A stretch of 22,022 nucleotides of DNA. It comes from a virus. The notes beneath the pieces are model-generated. The model searched no databases and had not been told where the DNA came from. It saw nothing but the letters and a program-made list of their open reading frames with translations. This document shows, piece after piece, positions 4,525 through 22,022 of the stretch (its first letter is position 1; every line of letters starts with the position of its first letter). Location of the stretch: positions 1-22,022 of the IMG/VR virus record IMGVR_UViG_3300044825_001704; one strand, written 5' to 3'. The translations under genes were made by a program, and so were the position numbers.

Positions 4525-5196
4525 GTGGACTACAACGACTACCTGACCCGCGTCGCCACCACGATGGTGCAGAGCGACACTGCCGATCCCGACTGGCTGA
4601 GCATGCTCTCGGCCTCGATCGACTATGCCGAGAAGCGGATCTACCGCGAGCTGGACTTGCTCGACACCCTGGTCGCCGACACGTCGCTGTCGACCACGGC
4701 GAACAACCGGCTCCTGCCGATCGGCAACGCGACCCTCGGCCGCTTCGTGAAGCTCGCCTCGGTCAACGCGGTCACCCCCACGGGCGTGCAGACGGTCGAC
4801 GACGGCACCCGCGTACCCCTTAGCCCAGTGTCGAAGGAGTGGCTGAACGCGGTCTACCCCAGCTCGCTGCAGAACGGTGTGCCGGCCTACTATGCCCTGA
4901 TCGACAGTCAGACGCTGATCCTCGGCCCGTGGCCGGATCAGGCCTACAAGATGGAGCTGATCGGCAACATCCGCCCGGTGCCGCTCTCCTCGCAGAACAG
5001 CGAGACCATCCTCAGCCTCTACTTCCCCGACTTGATGTTCGCCGCCGGCATGATCCATGTGTCCGGCTTCATGCGCAATTTCGGCTCCCAGGCGGACAAC
5101 CCGCAGATGGCCATGTCCTGGGAGACGGTCTACGAAAAGCTGAAGGAGGGCGCCTCGATCGAGGAGGCCAAGAAGGCCCTGGGAGCCGCCGCCTGA
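4525..5196 (+). CDS. Phage adaptor protein 2 (gp4/SU10-adaptor-like), 223 aa
   Basis: The start is a GTG at 4525, chosen because a strong GGAGGGG site lies at 4515-4521. The N-terminal helix (DYLTRVATTMVQSD, then LSASIDYAEKRIYRELDLLD) and the following strand (NNRLLPIGNATLGRFVKLASV) match podovirus adaptor proteins well. The segment AYYALIDSQTLILGPWPD is typical of the family beta core. The C-terminal helix carries EKLKEGASIEEAKKAL. In such phages this protein forms a dodecameric ring between portal and nozzle. It is directly upstream of, and overlaps by one base, the nozzle gene, a pairing that supports the assignment. Adaptor 1 at 1147 belongs to the same broad class. Confidence 0.8.
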   Translation: MDYNDYLTRVATTMVQSDTADPDWLSMLSASIDYAEKRIYRELDLLDTLVADTSLSTTANNRLLPIGNATLGRFVKLASVNAVTPTGVQTVDDGTRVPLSPVSKEWLNAVYPSSLQNGVPAYYALIDSQTLILGPWPDQAYKMELIGNIRPVPLSSQNSETILSLYFPDLMFAAGMIHVSGFMRNFGSQADNPQMAMSWETVYEKLKEGASIEEAKKALGAAA

Positions 5197-7217
5197 TGCC
5201 CACCGGAGCCGTCCGCCTCAAGCCGGGCATCAACGTCGAGCAGACCCTGGCGCTCAACACCGCCGGCTGGAGCAGCTCGGCCTACGTGCGCTTCCGCGAC
5301 GGCCTGCCGGAGAAGCTCGGCGGCTGGTCGCGATACTACCCGGTCTCGGTTGGCGACACCGTGCGGGCGCTGCACCCGTGGCAGGACATCAACAGCGCCA
5401 AGCGGCTCGCCGTCGGCGCGCTGACGTCTCTGCAATACATCCAGGACGGCTCGCTGCGCGACATCACGCCGCTCGGCCGGTTCGCGATCGTCACGGTCGA
5501 CGTCTCGACCACGATCGGTTCCTCCCTGGTCGACATCGTCGACACCGGGTGCCTGATGACGACCTACGACACCGTCGAGATCCAGACACCGCTTATCGTC
5601 GGCGGCCTCTCGATCTATGGGGTGTTCCCGATCACGGCCGCTCTTTCGAACGATCGGTACCAAATCGACGTGGGTGTCCTGGCGACCTCGACCGTCGTCT
5701 CGGGCGGCGTCGTCCCGGAGTTCAACACCACCTCGGGCTCGGCGATCGTCACCGTCGACTGGGTCGGCCACGGCTTCAGCGTCGGCGCCACGGTGCCTTT
5801 CATCCACTCGACCACCTCGGTCGGCGGCGTCGAGATCCAGGGCCTCTACACGGTCCTCTCGGTGCCCACCGCCGACAGCTTCACGATTTCGGTGTCGTCG
5901 CAGGCGACCTCGACCACGTCCGGCTTCATGAACAACGGGGACGCCGCCTACAGCTATTTCGTCACGCGCGGCCCGCAGGCGGCCGGCATCGGCTACGGGG
6001 GCGGCGGTTACGGTTCAGGCGGCTACGGCACCGGCACGGCCGTCTCGGGCGGCAACGGCACGCCCATCACCGCGACCGACTGGACCCTCGACAACTGGGG
6101 CTCGGACCTGCTCGCGTGCCCCCAGGGCGGCGCCATCTACGTCTGGTCGCCCCTGCAGAACTTCGCCACGGCGACCCTCCTGCCCAACTGCCCTGTGCAC
6201 AACACCGGCATGTTCGTCGCCATGCCCCAGCGCCAGATCATCGCCTACGGCGCCGAGGAGCTGGGCGAGCCCGACCCGCTCCTGGTGCGCTGGTGCGACG
6301 TGTCCGACTACACCGTCTGGACGGGCTCGGCGATCAACGAGGCGGGCAAGTATCGCATCCCGAGGGGCTCGAAGATCGTCGGCGGCATGCAGGTCTCGCA
6401 GCAGAGCATCCTGTGGACCGACCTGGGCGTCTGGTCGATGCAGTACATCGGCCTGGAGAACGGCGTGTACGGTTTCAACGAGGTCGGCAAGGATTGCGGC
6501 CTCATCTCGCAGAAGGCCGCCACGTCGTCGGGCAACATCATCGCCTGGATGGGCCAGAACGGCTTCTACATGATGACCAGCAACGGCGTCGAGACGATCG
6601 ATTGCCCGATCTGGGACGTGGTGTTTCAGAACATAAACCGCAGTTACGTCGACAATATCCGCGCCGGTTCGAACGCCGACTTCTCGGAGCTGTGGTGGTT
6701 CTATCCGTCGGTGAACTCCACCTCCGGCGAGAACGACAGTTACGTCAAAGTCCAGGTGCGCAACAATGCCTGGGACTTCGGTCTCATTGGCCGCTCCGCG
6801 TGGGCCGACAAGTCGGTTCTCGGCCAGCCGCTCGCCGCCTTCAACGGCATCATCTACCAGCACGAGAGCGGCCGGAACGACGACACCAGCGCAATGAACG
6901 CGGTGATCAGGTCAGGCTGGTTCGCGCTTGACGAGGGTGCCAACAAGATCACGGTGGACCTCATCTGGCCGGACTTCAAATTTGCGGCGTATGATGGTAG
7001 TTCTTCGGGCGCCGTGTATCTGACCTTCTACCTGTCCGACTACCCGGAAGGGCCGGTCAGTGTCTTTGGTCCGATCCGCGTAGACAACGCGACGCAATAT
7101 ATTAACAAGAGAATGCGGGGTAGACTGATGTCGATCCAGATCAGCTCGAACGACCTGAACACGTTCTGGCGCCTGGGCAACATCCGCTACCGTTACGCCA
7201 TCGACGGAGCCCGCTGA
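5196..7217 (+). CDS. Nozzle / packaged-DNA stabilisation protein (P22 gp10-like), 673 aa
   Basis: I start the gene at the ATG at 5196 (TGATG overlap with adaptor 2). The frame stays open upstream only as shadow. The protein resembles P22 gp10 (Phage_stabilise family), a beta-propeller-like hub that closes the DNA channel. Supporting segments are an N-terminal NTAGWSSSAYVRFRDGLPEK, and later QRQIIAYGAEELGEPDPLLVRWCDVSD, SILWTDLGVWSMQYIG and WMGQNGFYMMTSNGVETIDC. Residues of about 108-170 and 180-243 look like two copies of one inserted beta domain, followed by a Gly/Tyr-rich linker (YGGGGYGSGGYGTG). It likely forms the tail nozzle together with the two adaptors. Confidence 0.85.
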   Translation: MPTGAVRLKPGINVEQTLALNTAGWSSSAYVRFRDGLPEKLGGWSRYYPVSVGDTVRALHPWQDINSAKRLAVGALTSLQYIQDGSLRDITPLGRFAIVTVDVSTTIGSSLVDIVDTGCLMTTYDTVEIQTPLIVGGLSIYGVFPITAALSNDRYQIDVGVLATSTVVSGGVVPEFNTTSGSAIVTVDWVGHGFSVGATVPFIHSTTSVGGVEIQGLYTVLSVPTADSFTISVSSQATSTTSGFMNNGDAAYSYFVTRGPQAAGIGYGGGGYGSGGYGTGTAVSGGNGTPITATDWTLDNWGSDLLACPQGGAIYVWSPLQNFATATLLPNCPVHNTGMFVAMPQRQIIAYGAEELGEPDPLLVRWCDVSDYTVWTGSAINEAGKYRIPRGSKIVGGMQVSQQSILWTDLGVWSMQYIGLENGVYGFNEVGKDCGLISQKAATSSGNIIAWMGQNGFYMMTSNGVETIDCPIWDVVFQNINRSYVDNIRAGSNADFSELWWFYPSVNSTSGENDSYVKVQVRNNAWDFGLIGRSAWADKSVLGQPLAAFNGIIYQHESGRNDDTSAMNAVIRSGWFALDEGANKITVDLIWPDFKFAAYDGSSSGAVYLTFYLSDYPEGPVSVFGPIRVDNATQYINKRMRGRLMSIQISSNDLNTFWRLGNIRYRYAIDGAR

Positions 7218-7498: not shown

Positions 7499-7973
7499 CC
7501 GCGCGCTCGACCGCGCCATGAAGCTCGCCTCGGGCGGCAACGCAGCGAACAACAATGAGATGTTCGAGCGCGTGTCGCCCTACACGGTGGGGTACATCCA
7601 CTCGAAGGTGCCCGGTCGCACCGACAAGCTGCCGACCACGGTCCCGAGCGGCGCCTACGTGATCCCGGCCGACGTCGTCAGCGGGTTCGGCGAGGGCAAC
7701 TCCATGGCCGGCGCGCACTTCCTGGAGAAGCTGTTTCACTCCGGCCCCTACGGCGTCCCGCACCGCGCGCAGGGCGGGCGCCTCAACGGCGACCATCCGC
7801 CGACGCCGGTCATCCTGGCCGGCGGCGAGTTCGTGATCGCCCCGGAGGCGGTCAAGAAGATCGGCGGGGGCGACATCGACAAAGGCCACGAGGTGCTCGA
7901 CCGCTTGGTCGTGCGCCAGCGCAAGAAGCTGATCGGGACGCTCTCGAAACTGCCAGGACCGAAGAAGACATGA
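7488..7973 (+). CDS. Hypothetical phage protein with GGEFVI motif, 161 aa
   Basis: The ATG at 7488 overlaps the previous gene by 11 bases. The stop overlaps the acetyltransferase start (ATGA). Recognisable elements are VPSGAYVIPADVVSGFGEGN (residues about 52-71), an AQGGRL element and VILAGGEFVIAPEAVKKIGGG (about 108-128). A basic helix lies near the C-terminus (VVRQRKKLIG). GG-phobic elements of this sort recur in large phage internal or tail proteins, including the 1740-aa product downstream (LALGGAVED, MARGGR). I believe related proteins are common in alphaproteobacterial podophages, without known function. Confidence 0.75.
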   Translation: MIHDRALDRAMKLASGGNAANNNEMFERVSPYTVGYIHSKVPGRTDKLPTTVPSGAYVIPADVVSGFGEGNSMAGAHFLEKLFHSGPYGVPHRAQGGRLNGDHPPTPVILAGGEFVIAPEAVKKIGGGDIDKGHEVLDRLVVRQRKKLIGTLSKLPGPKKT

Positions 7974-8479
7974 CCCAGCCCTCCGTTGTTCGCCTCGCCA
8001 CGATCGACGACTGCCAGGACATCCTGGCGCTCTGCCATATGCTGTTCGAGGAGAACGGTTTCGCGAGCCTGAACGAGCACAAGGTGATGATGACGATCGC
8101 CCAGGGCGTCACGCTCGACGGCGGCATGATCGGCGTGATCGGCGCGCCCGGCCGCCTGGAGGGCGTCATCTCGCTCAGCTTCGACGGGCTCTGGTACACC
8201 GACGACATCCATTTGAGTGAGCGCTACAACTTCGTCCACCCGGAGCACCGCAAGAGCGGCCACGCGAAGGCCTTGATCGAGTTCGCCAAGCGCTCCGCGC
8301 GCGAGCTGGGCGTGCCGCTCATCATCGGCGTGATCTCGAACGAACGCACCGAGGCGAAGGTCCGCCTCTACCGGCGCCAGCTGGCCGAACCGGCCGGCGC
8401 CTTCTTCATCTACGGCCAGGGAGGGAAGGCGCGCGCTGCGGCCACCGCACCGGAAGCCCAGGCGGCAGTGGCCGCGTAA
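7970..8479 (+). CDS. GNAT-family N-acetyltransferase, 169 aa
   Basis: The protein shows the GNAT layout: an N-terminal strand (SVVRLATIDDCQDILALC), a central beta strand pair (GVISLSFDGLWYT), then motif A. Motif A is NFVHPEHRKSGHAKALIEFA, with the acetyl-CoA pyrophosphate-binding pattern R94-x-x-G97-x-A99. Motif B-like strand PLIIGVIS follows. The last part (GAFFIYGQGGKARAA) is followed by an Ala-rich tail. Members of this superfamily move an acetyl group from acetyl-CoA to an amine. In phages they are often found in virion gene clusters and may modify a host or phage protein, but the substrate here is unknown. The gene lies between connector and ejection genes and overlaps its neighbour by four bases. 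Confidence 0.85.
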   Translation: MTQPSVVRLATIDDCQDILALCHMLFEENGFASLNEHKVMMTIAQGVTLDGGMIGVIGAPGRLEGVISLSFDGLWYTDDIHLSERYNFVHPEHRKSGHAKALIEFAKRSARELGVPLIIGVISNERTEAKVRLYRRQLAEPAGAFFIYGQGGKARAAATAPEAQAAVAA

Positions 8480-8491
8480 GGAGCTACGGGA

Positions 8492-11400
8492 ATGTGCAAG
8501 GGTTCGAGCCAGTCCACGACCAACCAGAAGCCGGATCCCCGCGCGATGCGGGCGTATCTCAACGTCTTCAGGAAGGCGCAGAAGGCAGCCGCCGAACCCT
8601 ATCAGGCCTACGAGCGCGAGCTGGTGGCGGATCCGACCGCCGACATGAACGCCGCCTACGCTTCGATCAGGGGCCTGCAGGGCGCCTACCAGCCGGCCTT
8701 CGACAAGGCGACGGCGATGTTCGATCGCGCTGGCCAGCCGATCACCCCGATGGCGTTCTCGAAGGCCGCCGTCGACCAATACATGGATCCCTACCTCTCG
8801 AACGTGGTCGACACGACCGCCGCGAATATCGCGCGCGAGAACGCGATCGCGCAGCGTCGCCTGCAGGGCAACGCGATCTCGCGCGGCGCGTTCGGCGGCG
8901 ATCGCTCGGGCGTCGCGGCGGCCGAGCTGGAGCGCAGCCAGGGCCTCGCCCGCAACCAGACCATGGCCGAGCTGATGAGCAAGGGCTACGGTCAGGCGCT
9001 CGGAATGTTCAACACGCAACAAGGGGTTGACCTCAACGCGCAGCAGCAGAACGTCGCCAACGCGCTCGCCGCCGGGCAGAACTGGTACAACTTCGGCCAG
9101 GGGCAGGTGCAGACCGGCCTCGGCGTCGCGAACGCCCAGCTCCAGGCCGGCCAACTCCAGCAGCAGCAGCGCCAGAACGAACTGAACTCGCTGTATCAGC
9201 AGTGGCAGAACCGCAAGGCCTACCCGTTCCAGAGCATCGGGTGGCTCGGCAACATCGTGTCCGGCGTCGGCAACAACACGGGCGGCACCTCGACCACCAC
9301 GCAGGCGCCGCCGTCGCTGTTCTCGGGCCTCGTCGGCCTGGGCACGGCGGGCCTCGGCGCGATCTCGGATCGCCGCATGAAGACCGGCGTGGCGCGTGTC
9401 GGACGCACCGATGACGGCCAGCCGATCTATCGGTTTCGCTACAAGGGCGACCCGAGCGGCGTCGCCCACATGGGCCTGATGGCCCAGGAGGTCGAGAAGA
9501 AGCATCCGGGCGCCGTGCAGGAAGACGCCTACGGCGTCAAGCACGTCGACTACGATCGCGCGACCGGCAAGGCGGCGGGTGGCGGCGTCGCGCCGGCCGG
9601 CGCCATGAGCCCCTACGCGAGCGACTACATCGGCCTCGACCCGTTCGGCACCCGCAAGGACGATTTCATCGTGCGCGTGCCGGGCCTCGCGCTCGGCGGC
9701 GCCGTCGAAGACGAGCCCTATTCGTCCGGCCTCGGCTATGTGCCGAAGCCGAAGTCGATCGGCGGGGGCGGCAAGTGGGGCATCAACGCCCCGCCGCCGG
9801 AGAAGAAAGAAGGCCTGATGGGCCTGGGCGTGTCGACCAAGGAGCTGACCGACCTGGGCGTGGCGGCGAAGTCGGCGGCGCCCAAGATCAAGGGCATCCT
9901 CGGCCTGGAGCCGCCGAAGCCGCCGATCGCGCCGGAAGGCCAGGGCGGCATCGGCTCGATGGCGCGCGGCGGCCGCACGCGCGACGCGCGCGGCGTCTCG
10001 AAGGCGGCATTCTCGACGCGCAGCGACGGTTCGAACCCCGGCAACGAGTGGGGCGCCGGAGGGACCGACAACGGTCAGGGCCAGACCTATACCGAACATC
10101 CGGGCTACAACAACCCGCTCGCGGACAACCCCAACGGCGGCATCATGGACGGCTGGGGCGTCGGCATGGCCGACAGTGGCATGAACTCGACCGGGTACGT
10201 TCCGGGGATGGATCAGCCTTCCCTGGTCTCGCTCGGCTCGAACACCCAGGGCCTGCCCGGCCCGCCGGTCGGCCGCACCTATGGCTGGAACAGCCAGATC
10301 GCCTCGCGCTACACCGGCACGGGCGGCCCCGCTGGGCCGGCGGTCGGCGGGCGTCGAGGCTTGCTCGGTGGCACGGCCCTCGGCGGTGTTCCGGGAGCTG
10401 CGCCCGCACCGGGCGGCGTCATGGGCGGAGGCGGCTTCAGCTACAGCGGACCCATGTCCGACGCCGGATATGGCAGCGTTGCTGACCCGAATAACTACGG
10501 CGGCTTCGCGGGCCACGGCTACGGCACCCACGATTATGGGATCGGCGCCCAGGCGGCAGGCTTCGCCGGGGGTGACAACTACGGCCTGTCCGACTTCTCG
10601 GGCAACTCGCCGTCGAGCAACGGCCCGTCCTCGGGCGGCAGCTCGGGCGGCTACAGCGGCGCCGGCACGGGCGGCTTCGGCGGGGCTGACGGCTTCGAGA
10701 GCCGCGCCCGTGGCGGCCGCGCGCAGCAGGCCGCGCCCATGGCCATGATGCCGCCCGGCGCTCAGGCCCCGGCTCCCGGCTTCACCGTCGTCAACCAGCG
10801 GCGCACCGCGCCTGCGCGGGCTCTCGGCGCGACCACGCGCTCGGCCGCCGTGGAGGGACCGGGCGGCCAGGGTGGATGGGATCCGGCCGGCAACCCGGTC
10901 GATCCTGGGTTCAACTCGGGCGGCACCTTCGACGGCCGCACTCCCACCGGCCCGAACATCTACGAGGGTGACGGCGTGTTCGGTGGCACGCTGCGCGACG
11001 ACGGCGGCTGGCTCGATATCGGTGGGTGGCAGAACGCGGGCGACTATCTGCGCGGTCAACTCCCCGAGGATCCGAACGGCTTCCAGGGCGTGAATTTCGA
11101 CATGGCTCCAGACTTCAGCTCGCAGCCGATGGCGAGCCGGGGCTGGAGCGCGTTCGGCCCGAACGGATTGCAGCCGGGCGCGATGGGGCCGGCGCCCAAC
11201 CCGCACCCGCTCGGCTACAGCTACAGCCCGTCGTCCACGGCCGGCGGCTCTTCGGGCAGCTATGGCGGTTTCTCGGGCAGCGCCGATGCGCCGGGCACGT
11301 CCGCCGGCACTGGCTCGTTCGGCTCCGCCGACGGCTATGACAGCCGGGCGCGCGGTGGCGGCGTCTCGGCGATGGCGTTCGCGCGCGGTGGCGCCCGGCG

Positions 11401-13714
11401 GCCGCCGGCTCCGGCATTGCGCTCATCTGCGAAAAGCGATCCGTCCGGCGACGCGTTCAACGACGCGGGCGGCTACGGCGGCTTGGGCTCTGAGGCGCCT
11501 CCCGGTCGCCCCGGTTACGAGATGCTTAGTGGCGACAGCTTTGTCGACATGGGCAACAAGTGGACCGGATACGGCGACGGAACGACAAACATCTACGGGC
11601 AGCCACTGGGCATTCAGACCGGCTTCAACCAGCCGCCGGTTCCTGGACAGGTTCCCATTCGAACGTCTGACGTGACGATCACCACCAAAGGGCCGCCGGC
11701 TCCTCCTGGCGTCACTGTGCGCCCGGCGGGAGGCGGCAAACCTGTTACGGTTCCGGGCGCAGTCGTGCCGGGCGGAGCGGGGCCGGCACCTGGAGGGTCT
11801 GCCCCCGCCGGGTACTCGGGCAACTATTCGGATGCCGGCTACGGCAGCGTGGCGGACCCGAACAACTATGGCGGCTACGCCGGCCACGGGTACGGCACCC
11901 ACGACTACGGCGTCGGCGCCCAGATGACCGGCTTCACCGGGGCCGATAACTTCGGCTTCACAGATTTCAACGGCAGCGAGCCCGGCTCGAACGGCCCGTC
12001 CTCGGGCGGGTCGAGCGGCGGCTACTCGGGCGCCGGCTCGGGCGGCTTCGGCGGGGCCGACGGGTTCGAAAGCCGCGCTCGGGGTGGCGGTGTCGGCCCG
12101 GCGAGCATGCGCTTCGCAACCGGCGGCGTGCCCATGTCCGCCATGATGTCGGAGGAAGAGGCGCGCGCCATCCTGGCGAAGGAGCGAGCGGGCGAAGAGG
12201 CCGACGCGGCGCGCTTCATCGCCCAGGGCAAGGCTACCGGCGATGTCGACCCGGTGACCGGCCTCATGCCGAAGACGCTGCGCCGCGACCCGGCGCAGGA
12301 GCGCCCGATCCCCGGCTCGCGCCGGGCGATCCCGATGACCGAAGAACCTGACATGCCCGCGCCCAAGGCGGGCGTGGCCGCCATTGCGCGCGCGGCCGGC
12401 GAGCCTGCCGGCGTCGCAGCTGTGGCCAAGCCGGAGCCGAAAGGCGGCATCGAAGGCCTCGCGGCCAGGATCAAGAACACGTTCACGGGCGAGGGCGAAG
12501 GCTTCTCGCCGGAGACGCGCGCGGCCCTGATGGCGGCCGGGTTCGGGATCATGGCCGGCGGCAGCCGCAACCCGTTCATGAACATCGGCGCGGGCGGCCT
12601 CAAGGGCGTCGAGCAGTACAATGTCGGCATAACCCAGGGGCAGAACACGCGCCGCCTGGATCAGGCCGCCACGCAGCTCGCGCAAGACCTGCTCCGTATC
12701 CAGAACGAGACCAAGCTGGCGGACGCCGAGGTCGATGTCTCGCGCCGCGTCGGCATCGATCCGAAACTCATCCTCGGCGCCGGCAACGTGCCGAAGACGG
12801 TGGTCATGGGCGCCAACGCCCTGCCGGACGGCACTGCCGTGACCCGCCCGGTGACGCCCGCGCCGGGTGGAGGCGCGGCCGTCACGCCCGGTGGAGCGGC
12901 CGTGGACGCCGGCAAGAAGACGATCGAGGAGGTGCTCAACAGCACCGCCGACGCCGGCCCGCGTCCGATCAACGAGGTGGTCAAGGCCGACGCGCTGGCG
13001 GATCCGGGCAACGGCGTCGCATGGGTCGAGCCGCTGCAGCGCCGCTACGAAGCGCGCAGCGCTCCGGTCATCGAGCGCACCCAGACCGGCGCCCGCGCGG
13101 CCCAGGCGAACGTGCAGCGCCTGAAGACCCTGGAGCACGTCATCGACGCGGCGCCGAAGTCGGGCCTGTTCGCGCCCGGCGCCACCGCCGACGCGCGCAC
13201 TGCGTTCGGAGGCGCGCTCCTCGACGCGGCCACGGTGGCCGGCATCTCGCCGTCCAAGACCGCCGGCCTGTCGCGCGACGTGGGCAACGCCCAGGAGTGG
13301 AACAAGACCGTGCGCACCATGGCCGCCGAGATCGCGGCTGCGGGCGGCCAGGAGAGCTACGGCGCGCTGCAGTCGTCGCTCGAAACCGTGCCGTCGCAGA
13401 TGCTCGCGACGGTCGGCAGCCGGCGCATCCTGGAAGGCCTGAAGGCGATCAACCAGCGCCAGCTGGACAAGGCGTCGTTCATGGAGAGCTGGCAGCGCCA
13501 GAACCCCGGCGTGCCTCTCGACACGGCGGAGAAGGCCTTCGACGTGCGCTACCCGCCCGACCTCTACGCCACGCGCGCGATCGCACTGTCGATCCCGAAG
13601 GACAAGGTGAACGCGTTCCTGCGCGACGACCACCCGCAGGCGGCCGCCGATTTCGACGCCGCCTTCGGCAAAGGCTCGGCCGCCGCCGTCAAGCGCTTCA
13701 AGTGGGGTGAGTGA
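8492..13714 (+). CDS. Giant DNA-ejection / internal virion-type protein with S74-like segment, 1740 aa
   Basis: The ATG at 8492 has AAGGAG 7-8 bases upstream. Residues 1-285 are helical and Gln-rich, with ARENAIAQRRLQGNAISRG typical of phage ejection-type proteins. Residues 291-355 resemble the peptidase S74 intramolecular chaperone: SDRRMK, then YRFRYKGDP, HMGLMAQEVEKKHPGAV and VKHVDYD, with Ser292 and Lys297 in the usual S-x4-K spacing. Residues of about 360-1215 are low-complexity Gly/Pro/Ser sequence with two 92-residue copies and several RARGG elements. Residues 1215-1740 are again helical and soluble-looking (for example EEEARAILAKERAGEEADAA). Related phages often have the first ~350 residues as a separate protein, so this may be a fusion. 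The role as ejected protein is inferred from place and composition. Confidence 0.75.
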   Translation: MCKGSSQSTTNQKPDPRAMRAYLNVFRKAQKAAAEPYQAYERELVADPTADMNAAYASIRGLQGAYQPAFDKATAMFDRAGQPITPMAFSKAAVDQYMDPYLSNVVDTTAANIARENAIAQRRLQGNAISRGAFGGDRSGVAAAELERSQGLARNQTMAELMSKGYGQALGMFNTQQGVDLNAQQQNVANALAAGQNWYNFGQGQVQTGLGVANAQLQAGQLQQQQRQNELNSLYQQWQNRKAYPFQSIGWLGNIVSGVGNNTGGTSTTTQAPPSLFSGLVGLGTAGLGAISDRRMKTGVARVGRTDDGQPIYRFRYKGDPSGVAHMGLMAQEVEKKHPGAVQEDAYGVKHVDYDRATGKAAGGGVAPAGAMSPYASDYIGLDPFGTRKDDFIVRVPGLALGGAVEDEPYSSGLGYVPKPKSIGGGGKWGINAPPPEKKEGLMGLGVSTKELTDLGVAAKSAAPKIKGILGLEPPKPPIAPEGQGGIGSMARGGRTRDARGVSKAAFSTRSDGSNPGNEWGAGGTDNGQGQTYTEHPGYNNPLADNPNGGIMDGWGVGMADSGMNSTGYVPGMDQPSLVSLGSNTQGLPGPPVGRTYGWNSQIASRYTGTGGPAGPAVGGRRGLLGGTALGGVPGAAPAPGGVMGGGGFSYSGPMSDAGYGSVADPNNYGGFAGHGYGTHDYGIGAQAAGFAGGDNYGLSDFSGNSPSSNGPSSGGSSGGYSGAGTGGFGGADGFESRARGGRAQQAAPMAMMPPGAQAPAPGFTVVNQRRTAPARALGATTRSAAVEGPGGQGGWDPAGNPVDPGFNSGGTFDGRTPTGPNIYEGDGVFGGTLRDDGGWLDIGGWQNAGDYLRGQLPEDPNGFQGVNFDMAPDFSSQPMASRGWSAFGPNGLQPGAMGPAPNPHPLGYSYSPSSTAGGSSGSYGGFSGSADAPGTSAGTGSFGSADGYDSRARGGGVSAMAFARGGARRPPAPALRSSAKSDPSGDAFNDAGGYGGLGSEAPPGRPGYEMLSGDSFVDMGNKWTGYGDGTTNIYGQPLGIQTGFNQPPVPGQVPIRTSDVTITTKGPPAPPGVTVRPAGGGKPVTVPGAVVPGGAGPAPGGSAPAGYSGNYSDAGYGSVADPNNYGGYAGHGYGTHDYGVGAQMTGFTGADNFGFTDFNGSEPGSNGPSSGGSSGGYSGAGSGGFGGADGFESRARGGGVGPASMRFATGGVPMSAMMSEEEARAILAKERAGEEADAARFIAQGKATGDVDPVTGLMPKTLRRDPAQERPIPGSRRAIPMTEEPDMPAPKAGVAAIARAAGEPAGVAAVAKPEPKGGIEGLAARIKNTFTGEGEGFSPETRAALMAAGFGIMAGGSRNPFMNIGAGGLKGVEQYNVGITQGQNTRRLDQAATQLAQDLLRIQNETKLADAEVDVSRRVGIDPKLILGAGNVPKTVVMGANALPDGTAVTRPVTPAPGGGAAVTPGGAAVDAGKKTIEEVLNSTADAGPRPINEVVKADALADPGNGVAWVEPLQRRYEARSAPVIERTQTGARAAQANVQRLKTLEHVIDAAPKSGLFAPGATADARTAFGGALLDAATVAGISPSKTAGLSRDVGNAQEWNKTVRTMAAEIAAAGGQESYGALQSSLETVPSQMLATVGSRRILEGLKAINQRQLDKASFMESWQRQNPGVPLDTAEKAFDVRYPPDLYATRAIALSIPKDKVNAFLRDDHPQAAADFDAAFGKGSAAAVKRFKWGE
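9362..9556 (+). other. Peptidase S74-like (intramolecular chaperone) segment inside the giant protein
   Basis: Codons 291-355 read ISDRRMK..., a Tyr-rich strand, HMGLMAQEVEKKHPGAV and VKHVDYD, the order seen in S74 domains at the ends of tailspikes and fibres. Ser292 and Lys297 are present at the spacing known for the catalytic Ser-Lys pair. The placement is unusual, because about 1385 residues follow it. Whether it cleaves itself cannot be judged from sequence. Confidence 0.7.
10442..10717 (+). repeat. 276-bp repeat, copy 1 (92 aa)
   Basis: Codons 651-742 of the giant protein, from YSGPMSDAGYGSVADPNNYG to ESRARGG. By hand count 76 of 92 residues match copy 2 (11813-12088), with no gaps. Copies lie 1371 bases apart. 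Confidence 0.9.
11218..11359 (+). repeat. Degenerate, shortened third copy of the Gly-rich module
   Basis: This part codes for YSYSPSSTAGGSSGSYGGFSG, then an Ala/Gly linker, then GSFGSADGYDSRARGG. It matches only the second half of the 92-aa repeat (SSGGSSGGYSGAG...ADGFESRARGG). The left edge is approximate. Confidence 0.6.
11813..12088 (+). repeat. 276-bp repeat, copy 2 (92 aa)
   Basis: Codons 1108-1199 of the giant protein, gap-free match to 10442-10717. Most differences are conservative (Phe/Tyr, Ile/Val, Ser/Thr), which suggests a duplication kept under protein-level selection. Confidence 0.9.
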
Positions 13715-16677
13715 TGGCTGAAGCTCGCCCCAACCCGTACCTGCAGGAGGACGCGCCCGAGCAGGGTCCGCCGGCCGCGCCGCCGCGCGAGAACCCGTAC
13801 CTGCAGAGCGAAGTGCCGGTGTCGCCGCACCCCGGCATACTCGCCAACGACCCGAAGGACGGTGACTGGACCGATGTCGGCAAGAACATCGCCACGGGCG
13901 CCGTGAAGGGCGGGTTCGGCATGGACACGGTGATCGACTACTTCACGCCGCTAGGTGGCGCGAAGAAGCTCGCCGGCATCGGTGCGCAGATCGCCGAGAA
14001 GGAAGGATACATCAAGCCCGAGACACGCGACGCCATCCTCGACAAGACCGAGCAGGCAGGCGTCCCAGGGCTCAACGCCGAGACCGCACTGCGCACGACC
14101 GGCGAGTATGTGCCGGAGACGGCGGAGGGCCGGATCGGGCAAGCTGCGGTCGCCAACGCCGTCGGAGGCATCGGCCCCGGCGGTCTCGGTCGCATGGCAG
14201 TGGACGCCGGCATCGGCGCAGTCTCGGGCGCCGTCGGTGCCGGAGCGCGCGAGGTGGGCGAAGCGACAGGCATCAAGAACCCGATCGCGCTGGGAGCGCT
14301 CGATGTCGCCGGCAACCTGGGCACCGCCGTGGGGCTGCACGGCGTCGCGCGCACGGCCGCCAAGGTCGGCGACGAGATCGCGCAGAACCGCTACCGCAAG
14401 ACGGAAGCCGGCCAGGACGCCATCGTGGGCGAGCGGCTGCGCTCGAACCTCAGCGAGGGCGCCGATGCCGAAGAGGTGGCGAAGCGCCTGGACATGCCCG
14501 ACTACGTGCCGGGCTCGACGCGTGTGACCGGCGAGAAGTCGGGCGACGCCGGTCTCGCCGAACTCGATCGCGAGCTGACCACGCGCGACGCCGACTATCG
14601 TGGCAACTGGCTGGAGCGGCGCAACGCCAACGACGAAGCCCGCCTGGAGTATGCCCAGGGGCTCGCCAAGGGCGACCCGCTCGCGGTGCAGCGCACCGTG
14701 AAGCAGACCTTCGACGACCTCGACAACGCGGCCGGCGAGATCGTCGACAGCTACCGCACGAGCGCGGACGATCTGGCCGCTGGCCTCGGCCAAGGCCGCC
14801 GGGCGGAAGACGTCGGCCCCGACATGCGCGAGCTGCTGGAGACCCGGCACAAGACCGCGCGCGAGGCCGCCAGCCGGATCTACCGGGCACTCGAAGCGCG
14901 CGGGCGCTCGATGGAGGTGGCGCCCCTGAAGCAGGGTTGGGCCGCCACCTACAGGAGGTTGACATCGGAAGATCGCGCGGGGATTATTCCCGCCGAGCGG
15001 ACGATCGGCAAATTCATCAGCGGCTACGGCGACGTCGTGCCCTTCAACCGGGTGCGGTCGCTCGACAAGCTGATCACCGACGCCATGGCGACGGAGCGCA
15101 ACGCGAACGGCAAGTCGGCCGCGTGGGGGCGCCTGTCGCTGCTGAAGGGTTCGTTGAACGACGCCCTCAGCTCGGCCGCTCTGTCCCAGGCCGAACGCGA
15201 CGCCCAGGCGGTGGCGCGCGGCCAGCTGAAGGAGCAGGACAGCCTTGCCGCAATCCTTCGAGGATTGGAGACGGACATCGGCGCCGAAGTGGCTGCCGGA
15301 CGAAGCGCGTCAGGGGCTGCAGACGTTGCTGGACAAGCACGGGCTGTCGATGGGGTGGGTGCTGGCGATGGCGCAGCGGGCACTGCGGGAGCAGGACTGG
15401 CCGCGCCTGCACCTGTTCGATATCTACCTGCAGCAGATCGGAAGGTCAGACCTAGCCCTCCAGATCCTCCGTCCGCCACCTTCACCGACACCGACCGCGC
15501 CGATCTCCGCCGCGCCAATACGGGGTGGGCATCTCAGGCTCGTACATTCGGCAAGGGATCGGTAGGGCAGGTTCTCGCCACCGACGGCCGGGGCGACTTC
15601 AAGCTCAACGCCAGTGCGGCCCCGTCGCGGTTCTTCCGAGCCGGCGAACAGGGCGGCGACGCCATGCGCCAGTACACGGAAGCCGCCGGCCCTCGCGGCG
15701 CCGCGCTCGCGCAGGACTATGCCGTCGAGCGCATGCTCAATGCGGCTGCCGACACGCGAAACGGCCGGATCGACCCGAAGAAGCTCGCCAGCTTTACCAA
15801 GGCACACCGGGCCGCGCTCGACACCATGCCCGAGTTGCGCGACCGAATGACCTCGGTCGAGAACGCCGAACGCCTGTTCGACGACGCCGCCAGGGCGCGC
15901 AAGGACGCCGCCGACGCCCACCGGGCGACGCTCGCCGGCAAGCTCATGGGCGTCGAGGATCCCAGCGAGATGAGCCGCAAGATCGGCACGGTGCTCCAGA
16001 GCGCCGAGGGGCCGAAGCAGATGCGCACCCTCATGGCCGAGGTGCGCAAGTCGCCGGAGGCGCTGGAAGGTGCCCAGAAGGCGGTGATCGACCACATGCT
16101 GGCGACCAGCGACCTGAAGGGCCAGAGCTTCGTCAACTACCTGAAGAAGCACCGGGACGCCCTCGCCGAGGTGCTCACGCCGGAACAGCTGCAGGGCATC
16201 GAGCGGATCGCGGCCGACATCGGCGCGAAGCAGCGCTCGACCGGCAAGCAGACCGCCGTGCCCGGCCGTTCGACCACGGCGATCGACCTCGTGCGAGACA
16301 TGCTGACCCAGGGTGCGAGCCGTCCCATGGCACCGGCAGAGGCGGCCGACGCGGCTGTCGCCAATGCGCCGCTCTTCGTGGGCCTCAACCCAAAGGCCGC
16401 CATCGGCATCGGCGCGGCGGCCGGCGCGGCCGCCAAGGTGCAGAACATCATCTGGAACTTCCGTAACGCCGGGCTCGACGACATCAACCGCATCACCCGG
16501 CAGGCGATGCTCGATCCGAAACTGGCCGCCATCCTGCTGCGCGAACAGCCGCCGCGCATGACCAAGACGTGGATGGATCATCTGCAGCGTGATCTGGCCA
16601 ACAGACTGACGAGGCACGCCGTCTTCGCAGCCACGGGTGACAAAGCGGAACGTTTCGAACCGAAGGAAAAAGAGTAA
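13714..16677 (+). CDS. Large DNA-ejection / internal virion-type protein, 987 aa
   Basis: I prefer the ATG at 13714 (TGATG overlap with the previous stop, GGGG about 6 bases upstream). A GTG at 13711 is an alternative. The N-terminus has two NPYLQ motifs (about residues 7 and 28). Residues of about 140-230 are Gly/Ala-rich and hydrophobic (AVGGIGPGGL, GAVSGAVGAGA, GNLGTAVGLHGVA), as in proteins that enter the host envelope during DNA delivery. Long helical, charged stretches follow. A second Gly/Ala hydrophobic patch (AAIGIGAAAGAAAKV) lies near residue 895. Its position after the 1740-aa protein and before a collar fibre fits podovirus ejection proteins. Residues of about 521-575 have atypical codon use because another frame is better there (see 15245-15565). 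Confidence 0.75.
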   Translation: MAEARPNPYLQEDAPEQGPPAAPPRENPYLQSEVPVSPHPGILANDPKDGDWTDVGKNIATGAVKGGFGMDTVIDYFTPLGGAKKLAGIGAQIAEKEGYIKPETRDAILDKTEQAGVPGLNAETALRTTGEYVPETAEGRIGQAAVANAVGGIGPGGLGRMAVDAGIGAVSGAVGAGAREVGEATGIKNPIALGALDVAGNLGTAVGLHGVARTAAKVGDEIAQNRYRKTEAGQDAIVGERLRSNLSEGADAEEVAKRLDMPDYVPGSTRVTGEKSGDAGLAELDRELTTRDADYRGNWLERRNANDEARLEYAQGLAKGDPLAVQRTVKQTFDDLDNAAGEIVDSYRTSADDLAAGLGQGRRAEDVGPDMRELLETRHKTAREAASRIYRALEARGRSMEVAPLKQGWAATYRRLTSEDRAGIIPAERTIGKFISGYGDVVPFNRVRSLDKLITDAMATERNANGKSAAWGRLSLLKGSLNDALSSAALSQAERDAQAVARGQLKEQDSLAAILRGLETDIGAEVAAGRSASGAADVAGQARAVDGVGAGDGAAGTAGAGLAAPAPVRYLPAADRKVRPSPPDPPSATFTDTDRADLRRANTGWASQARTFGKGSVGQVLATDGRGDFKLNASAAPSRFFRAGEQGGDAMRQYTEAAGPRGAALAQDYAVERMLNAAADTRNGRIDPKKLASFTKAHRAALDTMPELRDRMTSVENAERLFDDAARARKDAADAHRATLAGKLMGVEDPSEMSRKIGTVLQSAEGPKQMRTLMAEVRKSPEALEGAQKAVIDHMLATSDLKGQSFVNYLKKHRDALAEVLTPEQLQGIERIAADIGAKQRSTGKQTAVPGRSTTAIDLVRDMLTQGASRPMAPAEAADAAVANAPLFVGLNPKAAIGIGAAAGAAAKVQNIIWNFRNAGLDDINRITRQAMLDPKLAAILLREQPPRMTKTWMDHLQRDLANRLTRHAVFAATGDKAERFEPKEKE
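15245..15565 (+). CDS. Candidate nested gene (106 aa) in the +1 frame of the ejection gene
   Basis: This ORF starts with TTG at 15245, ten bases after AAGGAG at 15229-15234, and ends in TAG at 15563-15565. An in-frame stop at 15227-15229 limits it upstream. For 15278-15439, third positions are G or C in 50 of 54 codons in this frame, against 21 of 54 in the host frame (hand count). The product has a balanced, helical composition with several Trp (WLPDEARQGLQTLLDKHGLS, MGWVLAMAQRALREQDWPRL, then LHLFDIYLQQIGRSDLALQIL) and a Pro-rich, basic tail. The host frame over the same bases is an Ala/Gly-rich string. I do not recognise the family. Alternatives are a paired frameshift in the host gene or a sequencing error pair. 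Confidence 0.55.
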   Translation: MPQSFEDWRRTSAPKWLPDEARQGLQTLLDKHGLSMGWVLAMAQRALREQDWPRLHLFDIYLQQIGRSDLALQILRPPPSPTPTAPISAAPIRGGHLRLVHSARDR

Positions 16678-19417: not shown

Positions 19418-19627
19418 ATGGGCACTAAGCAAGAACGGCTGCAGAAGGAAGGCGTCGCGAGAGCCGTCATGGCCGTCGGGACGTTCTCCGAGCTAGCTCG
19501 CCGGCTTGGCACGAGCCGTCAGGCCGTGCAAAAGTGGGCGCGTGTCCCGGAGGCTCGGGTGGAGCAGGTTGCCCGCATCACGGGCGTGCCCAAGCACATC
19601 CTGCGCCCCGACCTCTACGAGAAGTAA
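19418..19627 (+). CDS. YdaS/Cro-like helix-turn-helix DNA-binding protein, 69 aa
   Basis: I chose the ATG at 19418 because the promoter lies just upstream. The frame is open to 19358, inside the previous gene. The core GTFSELARRLGTSRQAVQKW is a helix-turn-helix with a Q-A-V recognition helix. It is followed by ARVPEARVEQVARITGVPK and HILRPDLYEK, the usual ending of the YdaS / Cro-like antitoxin-regulator group. There is no Shine-Dalgarno sequence, consistent with leaderless translation as in lambda cI. It may control lysogeny or the switch between the plus-strand and minus-strand units. It could also control only itself. No partner toxin is visible. Confidence 0.8.
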   Translation: MGTKQERLQKEGVARAVMAVGTFSELARRLGTSRQAVQKWARVPEARVEQVARITGVPKHILRPDLYEK

Positions 19628-19632
19628 CGCCT

Positions 19633-19647
19633 GTCGACCGGGTCGAC
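19633..19647. promoter_or_regulatory. Short perfect palindrome after the YdaS-like gene
   Basis: GTCGACCGGGTCGAC is an inverted repeat with 7-base arms and one central base, five bases after the stop codon. The arms share the GTCGAC core with a further site at 19706-19711. It could be a protein-binding site. No T-run follows, so it is not a terminator. Confidence 0.4.
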
Positions 19648-19774
19648 CCCTGCAGCGGTATCAGCACGGCAAGCGTGTAAGGCGCTACAAGGGCGGGTTC
19701 GGGAGGTCGACAGGTGGTGGCGCGCCGCAGCGCTACGATGAAGGCATGCCCGTGAAACCCGCCAACGCTGACAA

Positions 19775-19800
19775 AAACGCCCGGCTTTCGCCGGGCGTTT
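19775..19800. terminator. Bidirectional intrinsic terminator
   Basis: AAACGCCCGGC, loop TTTC, GCCGGGCGTTT: a perfect 11-bp G+C-rich stem with a 4-base loop. Read on the minus strand, the stem is followed by a T-run (TTTTTGT counting the stem end), which makes it a strong terminator for the polymerase-lipoprotein unit. On the plus strand, it is followed by TTTCTG, which is weaker. It lies between converging genes, as expected. Confidence 0.88.
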
Positions 19801-19831
19801 CTGCGTTCAGGTCCGGGGGGAACCTTCACAA

Positions 19832-19871
19832 CCTGGGCCGAGCGGGGAAGCCAACTTCGGTTCGGCCCAGG
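19832..19871. other. Long stem-loop downstream of the lipoprotein gene
   Basis: CCTGGGCCGA (19832-19841) pairs perfectly with TCGGCCCAGG (19862-19871) across 20 bases. The 20 bases contain a smaller GAAG-CCAA-CTTC hairpin. In minus-strand transcripts it lies between the lipoprotein stop and the terminator. It could protect the mRNA 3' end or bind a protein. Its role is not known. Confidence 0.5.
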
Positions 19872-19902
19872 GGTCTCGACGATACGCCGGCAGGCGAGCG
19901 TG

Positions 19903-20049
19903 TCAACACGTCTTGAACTGCGTGACGCCGGGCCTGACCTCCTTCTGGCAGGCCGGCGGGGGCGGCTTCGAGGCCTCGTGCCGGTAGCCGTTGGTGTCGA
20001 TCTGGCAGCCGGCCAGCAGGACGGCCAGGACGAGCGCGATGGTTCTCAT
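19903..20049 (-). CDS. Small lipoprotein, 48 aa
   Basis: The ATG (20049-20047) overlaps the polymerase stop by an ATGA, so translation is probably coupled. The N-terminus MRTIALVLAVLLAGC is a lipoprotein signal with lipobox LAGC (Cys15). The mature peptide is 34 residues, with two more Cys (34 and 48) and a PPPPACQKE segment. Short phage lipoproteins can act in superinfection exclusion or as o-spanins. Since a spanin pair is already present at 18735-19107, exclusion or an unknown envelope role seems more likely. This is inference only. The gene ends just before a long stem-loop. Confidence 0.75.
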   Translation of the reverse strand: MRTIALVLAVLLAGCQIDTNGYRHEASKPPPPACQKEVRPGVTQFKTC

Positions 20050-22022
20050 TTCCGGTACCTCTCCGCTTCGAAGCCGCCGACCGCGATCGGCAATTCGCTC
20101 CAGTCCTCGTTGTCGTTGGCGGCCTTGCGCGCCCACCCGGGCGTCTGCCGCATGATCGCGTTGAACTCCTCCAGGCTGCCGAAGCCCTCGGCCACCTCGG
20201 CCACGATCTCGTCGTGGACGTGCAGGACGATCGAGTAGCCGGCGGCATCGAGGCGCAGCATGGCATCCCGCATGCAGTCGCGCGCAGCCGCCTGGGTGGC
20301 GTTCTCGGCCAGCTTGCCGCCGTAGGTCGACAGCCGGGTCCACTTGCCCTTGGTGGGCGAGCCGGACCTGCTGTCGATGCCCATGTAGGTGACGACTTCC
20401 TTCAGCTCGCCCCAGGGCGTCTTGCGCATCGAGAGGCGGGGGAAGGGGTAGAAGAGGCGCCGGCCGGACGGCAGGCGCATGGTCAGGAACGAGCCGTCGA
20501 CCTTGAAGCTGATGTGGTCGCCCGCGTAGAAGGTCTCCTTGGGGAACATCACGGCCGCGACGGCCGCCTCCTCCAGGGCCTTCCAGAACTTCACGATCCT
20601 GGGGTGCTTCGCGCGCCACGCGTTCTTGATGTCCTCGGCCTCGTCGTCGGTCACGATGACCCGGTAGCCCGACGCCATCTTTTGGAACGCGACCTTGCCG
20701 CCGCCGAAGCCGAGCGCCAGCTCGGCGACCTTGCCCACCTGCCGGCGATCGTCTTTCTTACCGATCGTAGCCGGGTCGACGTGATAGATGGCGCCGGCCG
20801 CGATGATGTAGGGATCCGGTCCCATCTCCGCGTCGTTCAGGCGGAACACGTCGAGCTTGCTCTCCTCGCCGGCCAGCCACGCCAGGACGCGCCCCTCGAT
20901 GTTGCTGAAGTCGCCGGCCATCAGACGGTGCCCGGCGGCCGCGACCAACACGCCGCGCATGCAGTCGCCGATCGCCTCCAGGGCGTCGCCGAACATCAGC
21001 TCCAGCAATCCGTAGTCGCCGAAGCGCTTGATCAGCTTGATGATCTGGGCGACCACCTCATAACCGACCGTCGGACGCTTGAGGTTATGGGGTTGAAATC
21101 TCCGGCCGCCCCACCGGCCCGTGGAGGCCGCGCAGTACTGCAGCAGGCCTCGCACGCGACCGTCCTGCATCAGGCCGGCCAGGAGGGCGTCCAGCTTGCT
21201 CGCGGACGCCTTGGCGCCCATGCGGCGGACCTCCAGCACCTGCCGGATCAGACCCGGCTTGCCGGGCGCGTCGCCGGGCAGGGGCTGGCCGAGCAGCTCG
21301 TGCACGGTCTCCTTGCCGATGCTCTCGATGCCGTCCTCTTCGTCGCCCTCGCCTAGCCGCGCCAGGATCTCGGGCGGCAGGCGCTTCTCCAGCCACTCGA
21401 TCAGCTTCTTGCCCTGGTTGGTCGAGTGGACGTAGCCGTCGGTGAGGTGCTTGATGCGGGCGTTCAGATCCTTCTGGGCCGCGCCGACGATCTTGAGGGC
21501 GTGCTCGACCAGCTCGATGTCGACCTGGATGCCGCGATCGTTGATGCGCTGGTCGAGCGCCCAGGTGGCCTGCTCGACCTTCGACAGCTTGCACAGGCGC
21601 TGCCCGAGGCGGATCTCCGCCTCGACGTCGCCGATGCAGTAGAGCCCGAGCCGGCGCCTCTGCTGGGGCGTCTCGTGCCATGTCAGGGGGTAGGTGGTCT
21701 TCGGCCGGCACATCAGCAGCATGAGCTGGTAGCCGCCAGGATCCTTGGCGATCTCCATGCCGACGGCGCGGCACGCGTCCTCCAGGCCGCCCGGCAGCGC
21801 CTGGGCATAGGCCATGGCCATCGTGCAGCGCCAGCGCTCGGGCGGCGGCGGCGCCGGCCATCCGTAACGGGGGTGCAGGACGAACGCCCAGATCGCGCGC
21901 TCGAAGGCCGCGTTGTGAGCCCAGAAGAGGGTGTCGGGGTCGGCAGCCGCCATGCGGATGTCGACCGGGCAGCGGTAGCGCTCGACCCCGGTGACGTCGT
22001 GATAGGTGATGTCGTCGAGCGT
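20046..22022 (-). CDS. Family A DNA polymerase with 3'-5' exonuclease (5' end outside window)
   Basis: The frame is open to the right edge, so at least 658 residues are present and the start lies outside. Near the visible N-terminus, TLFWAHNAAFERAIW matches the Exo II region, and GLYCIGDVEAEIRL matches Exo III (YxxxD). Polymerase motif A is GDFSNIEGRVLAWLAGE, motif B is RQVGKVAELALGFGGGK and motif C is VLHVHDEIVAEV (HDE at 20216-20208). All key residues of a working family A enzyme are visible. The Exo I (DxE) motif would lie upstream. It should copy the phage genome. It is transcribed toward the late genes and overlaps the lipoprotein gene by four bases. Confidence 0.92.
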   Translation of the reverse strand, partial: TLDDITYHDVTGVERYRCPVDIRMAAADPDTLFWAHNAAFERAIWAFVLHPRYGWPAPPPPERWRCTMAMAYAQALPGGLEDACRAVGMEIAKDPGGYQLMLLMCRPKTTYPLTWHETPQQRRRLGLYCIGDVEAEIRLGQRLCKLSKVEQATWALDQRINDRGIQVDIELVEHALKIVGAAQKDLNARIKHLTDGYVHSTNQGKKLIEWLEKRLPPEILARLGEGDEEDGIESIGKETVHELLGQPLPGDAPGKPGLIRQVLEVRRMGAKASASKLDALLAGLMQDGRVRGLLQYCAASTGRWGGRRFQPHNLKRPTVGYEVVAQIIKLIKRFGDYGLLELMFGDALEAIGDCMRGVLVAAAGHRLMAGDFSNIEGRVLAWLAGEESKLDVFRLNDAEMGPDPYIIAAGAIYHVDPATIGKKDDRRQVGKVAELALGFGGGKVAFQKMASGYRVIVTDDEAEDIKNAWRAKHPRIVKFWKALEEAAVAAVMFPKETFYAGDHISFKVDGSFLTMRLPSGRRLFYPFPRLSMRKTPWGELKEVVTYMGIDSRSGSPTKGKWTRLSTYGGKLAENATQAAARDCMRDAMLRLDAAGYSIVLHVHDEIVAEVAEGFGSLEEFNAIMRQTPGWARKAANDNEDWSELPIAVGGFEAERYRK

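Follow-up and report, generated by a model that had tools for sequence, protein, structure and literature searches.

A putative conserved gene nested out of frame in the linker of an ejection-type phage virion gene

Most known nested phage genes are lysis genes and homing inserts. The embedded spanin genes Rz/Rz1 of lambda-like phages are one precedent (PMC5295617, PMC6139136), a conserved small gene lying there out of frame in another phage gene. The nearest precedent that we found for the locus described here is the ShiLan domain, an out-of-frame 195-aa HNH homing endonuclease inserted in actinobacteriophage DNA methylases, with a patchy and mobile distribution (PMC11855218). No gene nested in an ejection protein was found in the open-access literature searched.

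The window, i.e. the whole stretch of 22,022 nucleotides analysed here, comes from a 22-kb viral record (IMGVR_UViG_3300044825_001704) and contains a gene for a 987-aa ejection-type virion protein with an Ala/Gly/Pro-rich linker. According to what we consider the best explanation, with a probability of about 0.8, this linker holds a second genuine gene that would be translated in the +1 frame. As in ShiLan, a small out-of-frame gene would lie within a larger phage gene whose own frame stays open, would use a non-ATG start (GTG in ShiLan) and was missed by annotation. Unlike ShiLan, the nested products of the related loci described below have 60-69 aa and no nuclease match, and they are encoded at one fixed site of an ejection-type gene in divergent phages, all in the +1 frame. 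The locus also differs from Rz/Rz1: Rz1 is a lipoprotein acting in lysis with the product of its host gene, whereas the nested members lie in a virion gene, are hydrophilic (highest 19-residue hydropathy 1.07, 0-1 Cys each) and show no lipoprotein signal or membrane segment. Their small size, hydrophilicity and lack of membrane segments therefore argue against spanin, holin and single-gene lysis roles. What appears new is a family of small proteins that a virion gene of the ejection type conceals in a shifted frame. It has been retained by phages whose host proteins share only about a quarter to a third of their residues, and gene finders overlook it in the named records examined.

The ejection-type gene and the composition of its linker

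The first-pass annotation had assigned the host gene to an ejection protein. The 'DNA ejection protein' match (phrog_4287) belongs to the neighbour, the 987-aa gene lying directly downstream of it (Table 1), and the 987-aa protein itself gave no significant PHROG or Pfam match and matched no named ejection-protein family. We keep the designation in the weaker form 'ejection-type', which relies on this synteny and on the 'structural protein' label of a distant homologue, gp21 of Paracoccus phage vB_PmaP_KLEP18-1 (OM654376.2, E 7e-29). In the 1740-aa neighbour, the Peptidase_S74 domain is located at residues 292-337, far from the C-terminus, and is followed by recurring long Gly-rich segments, e.g. 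GGYSGAGTGGFGGADGFESRARGG.

Table 1. Features of the host gene, its upstream neighbour and the nested ORF in the window
Feature	Coordinates	Strand	Basis and remarks
Upstream neighbour, 1740-aa ejection-type protein with S74 chaperone domain	8492..13714	+	phrog_4287 E 8e-28, Peptidase_S74 E 7e-5
Host gene, 987-aa ejection-type virion protein	13714..16677	+	ATG start; ORF and translation; frame 0 unbroken across the linker
Shine-Dalgarno-like AAGGAG	15229..15234	+	10-nt spacer before TTG; sequence and start-site table
Nested +1-frame ORF, 106 codons	15245..15565	+	TTG 15245 start, TAG 15563-15565 stop; slot and frame as in seven homologues
Coding-like part of the nested ORF, ~78 codons	15245..15478	+	GC composition, coding score
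Ala/Gly/Pro-rich linker of the 987-aa host protein	15274..15486 (limits approximate)	+	host GC3 down to 0.38

Over 15280-15439 (53 codons), GC1/2/3 is 0.92/0.74/0.38 in the host frame and 0.74/0.38/0.92 in the +1 frame, the reference GC3 being 0.84 for the whole host gene and 0.90 for the record (6,494 training codons). These values match an earlier hand count of G/C third positions, which gave 21/54 in the host frame and 50/54 in the +1 frame. A high +1 GC3 is almost inevitable here: the third nested position coincides with the first host position, which is G in all codons for Ala, Gly, Val, Asp and Glu. What is informative is that host GC3 is low. As a null model, the host residues over 78 codons were back-translated at random 20,000 times with the record's own codon usage. 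The observed host GC3 is 0.44, and the minimum among the 20,000 back-translations is 0.74. Similarly, the +1 coding score reaches +0.8 bits, compared with -23.3 for the best of the back-translations (mean -51.3, sd 7.4).

Could these properties arise with no second gene at all? If codons in a repetitive Ala/Gly linker were chosen in an unusual way, such as to avoid GC-rich runs, the host GC3 would be low and the appearance of the +1 frame a by-product. Dips of GC3 are indeed found in other Ala/Gly/Pro linkers, some of them without a known nested gene, such as PAE2_14 in L093 and repeats in L051, L068, L030 and L074. Moreover, the +1 frame is open in 81% of the back-translations, as codon choice would have it; its mere openness is therefore no evidence for a gene and was rejected as such. 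Nevertheless, the +1 translations of the control linkers are low-complexity strings and not ordinary helical proteins, and codon choice cannot yield six mutually homologous +1 peptides across barely alignable host linkers (see below). We consider this explanation improbable.

The same sequence check reproduced other elements noted earlier, the AAGGAG ten bases before the TTG, the stop and the presence of several Trp, of which there are four. The proposed 106-aa product stands as far as the ORF does have 106 codons. The coding signal fades by about 15478, leaving the last ~28 codons unsupported, so that this length is probably overestimated; the homologues have 60-69 aa.

A scan for out-of-frame coding signal in 435 ORFs of at least 300 aa gave 33 hits, most of the strongest being, as judged by eye, spurious long ORFs over real genes; the nested cases recognised were the window linker and L128. 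As for PAE2_14 of Pseudomonas phage PAE2, it is an unrelated protein in whose Gly/Pro linker (L093 7918-8158) the host GC3 goes down to 0.40 and the +1 frame is open for some distance, which may reflect codon choice or another hidden ORF.

Homologues of the host protein and their nested ORFs

When phages and viral contigs were searched directly, neither the 987-aa protein nor the nested peptide found a relative, and a search of genome contigs and plasmids with the nested peptide found nothing. Among annotated phage records, the distant KLEP18-1 gp21 is the only relative of the host protein; in MW202675, PAE2, OspP_OH, RHph_N2 and phiM5, which carry a syntenic S74/ejection gene, there is no detectable homologue of it. 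The neighbouring head protein (4863-7214) led to 80 viral loci, one of which, L026, encodes a host homologue. Its linker shows a GC3 dip as in the window, and the +1 frame is open there, with GAGGAATACC preceding a GTG. L083, fetched by the window/L026 pair alignment, again has a linker with a GC3 dip and a +1 ORF, and the nested peptides of L026 and L083 match at blastp E 1.6e-10 over 60 residues. Scanning genome contigs with the two-protein alignment gave no match.

To extend the set independently of the nested frame, we searched with a DNA pattern representing a motif that the host protein has downstream of the linker. This gave 28 loci, from which the host profile picked L108 (E 1e-240) and L112 (E 2e-186). 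A nested profile built from L026 and L083 only then matched the linker ORFs of L108 and L112 at E 5e-14 and 7.5e-11, among 17,007 ORFs. The L108 host protein led to three alphaproteobacterial plasmids, pAU20g of Aureimonas sp. AU20 (WP_061979152.1) and two Microvirga plasmids (one with WP_322883923.1), all with nested ORFs (E 3e-12 to 7e-11). The plasmids with WP_061979152.1 and WP_322883923.1 share with the window the host protein family, the linker and the +1 nested gene; unlike that of the window, their nested gene encodes 60-67 aa alignable with the family. For two plasmids the annotation lists the host gene, and it includes a nested gene in neither. The closer host homologues are thus seven, from four viral contigs (L026, L083, L108, L112) and three plasmids, to which the window host protein is only 23-30% identical. 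Each of the seven records has a single nested copy, always in the host gene. In L026, the host protein carries at 19540-20130 a second copy of part of the post-linker domain (two overlapping profile matches), which is absent from the window protein.

As defined here, the nested family comprises L026, L083, L108, L112, L127 and L128/L131, i.e. six divergent lineages, L131 being a near copy of L128. In all six the linker is Ala/Gly/Pro-rich, little conserved and at an equivalent alignment position, and there as in the window the nested frame is coding-like and host GC3 collapses. The open +1 ORF is found inside the linker of 7/7 homologues, with a product predicted to be helical. The location test places the window and all members in the linker, at frame offset +1 and in neighbouring alignment columns: starts of the six lineages fall within 7 columns of each other and that of the window 9 columns earlier.

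Comparison of the peptides carries most of the argument. Among the six lineages, 15/15 pairs of nested peptides scored above each of 500 shuffles (Z 7.9-22.6), whereas the host-frame peptides of the same DNA have a lower Z in 15/15 pairs, often near 1-3. The nested alignment contains invariant E, D, L, R, Y and P and the motif E-x7-DL-x3-R-x4-Y. We take it as shown by these alignments that the ancestor common to at least six divergent lineages already carried a homologous nested ORF with the marks of a gene. The claim of an unannotated out-of-frame gene in the linker is supported by the seven homologues, whose linker likewise contains a small +1 gene with a conservation exceeding that of the host frame.

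Variation by codon phase points in the same direction. In the 40-codon core aligned by the nested frame, the maximum (0.58) is at nested position 3 and the minimum (0.43) at host position 3, which is the most variable one (0.66) outside the overlap. The contrast weakens in an alignment of the overlap by the host frame, with values of 0.53/0.48/0.58 and a peak at host position 3 that is only reduced. This test supports nested coding, as judged from six lineages, without deciding. The close pair of Microvirga has 2 substitutions across the overlap, a near-identical tract, too few for dN/dS. Between L128 (about 8238-9700) and L129/L131, the two phage-like Microvirga plasmids, the nearly identical central tract includes the nested gene, the host gene being otherwise 87% identical, and it looks as if it had been recently exchanged by recombination.

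The putative start sites are uneven across members. L026 and L112 have a GTG with AGGA/GGAGG at 5-6 nt and L127 a TTG with GAGG at 6 nt. In L083 and L128 the ATG is not preceded by a good Shine-Dalgarno sequence, and in L108 the corresponding position has no standard start codon.

Paired indels or a sequencing error would mean that the +1 stretch was once in frame with the host protein, and a normal-coding +1 stretch between flanks coding in frame 0 is the pattern to be expected from such events. Homologues carrying the peptide in frame, which the first-pass annotation had named as their sign, did not turn up: seven independent homologous records put the helical peptide in +1 and the linker in frame 0. 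Furthermore, in KLEP18-1 gp21 the N-terminal part runs into the TFGxGxVG domain with no linker, the segment being missing and not in frame. Indels or errors are extremely improbable, and from the homologues the locus very probably is a conserved out-of-frame nested gene. KLEP18-1 has no nested gene anywhere in its genome; in the cases seen, linker and predicted nested gene are present or absent together, the absence being represented by one distant example.

That absence, an insert-like distribution, also fits a selfish homing insertion carrying an out-of-frame gene, as do the open host frame and the non-ATG start, for which the ShiLan HNH element of actinobacteriophage methylases is a precedent (PMC11855218). 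On the other hand, no HNH or homing endonuclease was matched by nested members in Pfam, NCBIfam or PHROGs, and 60-69 aa is all that they offer. There is one copy per record, always in the host gene, and a single site is held across very divergent phages. We regard a homing element as very improbable.

The window peptide and the nested family

The earlier expectation of +1-frame conservation stands for the site, at which a nested gene is kept in the relatives, and lacks support in the sequence of the window peptide, which is not significantly similar to theirs. Unlike the 15/15 pairs among the six relatives, comparisons of the window peptide with the family gave p 0.053 with the profile, 0.10 for the ungapped motif (shuffles) and 0.22 for the semi-global alignment (shuffles). 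For the best of six single pairs, 16/500 shuffles were as good (p about 0.03). The core of the window peptide is longer by roughly 15 residues, and its ORF begins with TTG and runs past the stop position that the family shares. AlphaFold2 gave only helices for both L112 (mean pLDDT 73) and the window peptide (mean pLDDT 70, a modest value; residues 5-11, 19-32, 36-48, 52-64 and 68-75), a likeness too weak to prove a shared fold. Membership of the window in the nested family is shown by position, frame and composition only.

Two readings of this divergence were weighed. The window +1 ORF could be a different, unrelated nested gene that replaced the family gene or newly overprinted the linker, the gene of the relatives being real. 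The lack of significant similarity, the extra core residues and the missing stop at the family position speak for it. Alternatively, the window peptide could be a diverged orthologue of the family, the reading that we prefer. Both share the linker and the +1 frame and nearly share the start column, both are predicted to be all-helical, and the weak match to L083 covers, by eye, conserved A, R, D, L and Y positions. In addition, with host proteins only 23-30% identical, a fast-evolving small protein could diverge beyond recognition. We judge an unrelated gene in the window to be rather unlikely.

Possible expression and role of the nested gene

Under the preferred reading of a conserved nested gene, ribosomes on the virion-gene mRNA would read frame 0 straight through to give the 987-aa protein; frame-0 readthrough is suggested by the homologues, whose frame 0 is unbroken and one of which has no linker at all. 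Other ribosomes would initiate internally at the TTG behind AAGGAG, and their product would be a soluble helical protein of small size. The nested frame has the normal codon composition of the record and the host frame does not, so the nested gene is probably the constrained partner. The main constraint on the overlapping DNA would then come from the small protein, and the Ala/Gly linker would largely be its out-of-frame shadow. From codon composition and conservation, we suppose that such a shadow is tolerated since flexibility is all that the host protein requires there.

The description of the product as not recognised still holds, no convincing family or fold match having been obtained for the nested peptides. 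Foldseek gave no known fold for the family (best E 3.2 in PDB, 0.8 among viral structures), the best VIA-align Z, 5.1, was to a designed protein, and the best PDB sequence-profile match had E 0.28. For the window model, the best PDB match had E 4.7. Nor was there a convincing family or defence match for any member. A weak resemblance to DNA polymerase III theta/HOT (one member matching phrog_20697 at E 0.025; 1se7 at E 0.86) and a DrmC match of one member (E 0.024) were set aside as chance.

Tentatively, and as a guess from position, the small protein might be an accessory of the ejection-type protein in assembly, packaging or ejection, co-expressed with it from one mRNA. A broader proposal is more doubtful still: that an ancient conserved protein is made inside the ejection gene and works with it in assembly, packaging or the ejection channel, that the linker is merely its shadow, and that shadow linkers may mark further hidden genes. 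As a suggested rule, a hidden gene may be what lies behind an Ala/Gly linker in which host GC3 collapses locally and a neighbouring frame is the better conserved one. The system also lends itself to testing concretely whether one stretch of DNA encodes both a virion protein and its helper.

Two other genes of the window deserve mention. A GNAT acetyltransferase gene (7970-8479, Pfam E 7e-7) is located just upstream of the S74/ejection-type gene. Genes annotated as acetyltransferases occupy the equivalent place in MW202675 (L092 8513-9007), Ochrobactrum phage OH (L094 8613-8966), Rhizobium phage RHph_N2 (L095 7730-8203) and Paracoccus phage KLEP18-1 (L130 2413-2802), making it a conserved enzyme gene among virion genes. 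The record ends with a gene for a family A DNA polymerase (20046-21953, Pfam E 3e-15), which lies on the - strand and is transcribed away from the virion genes.
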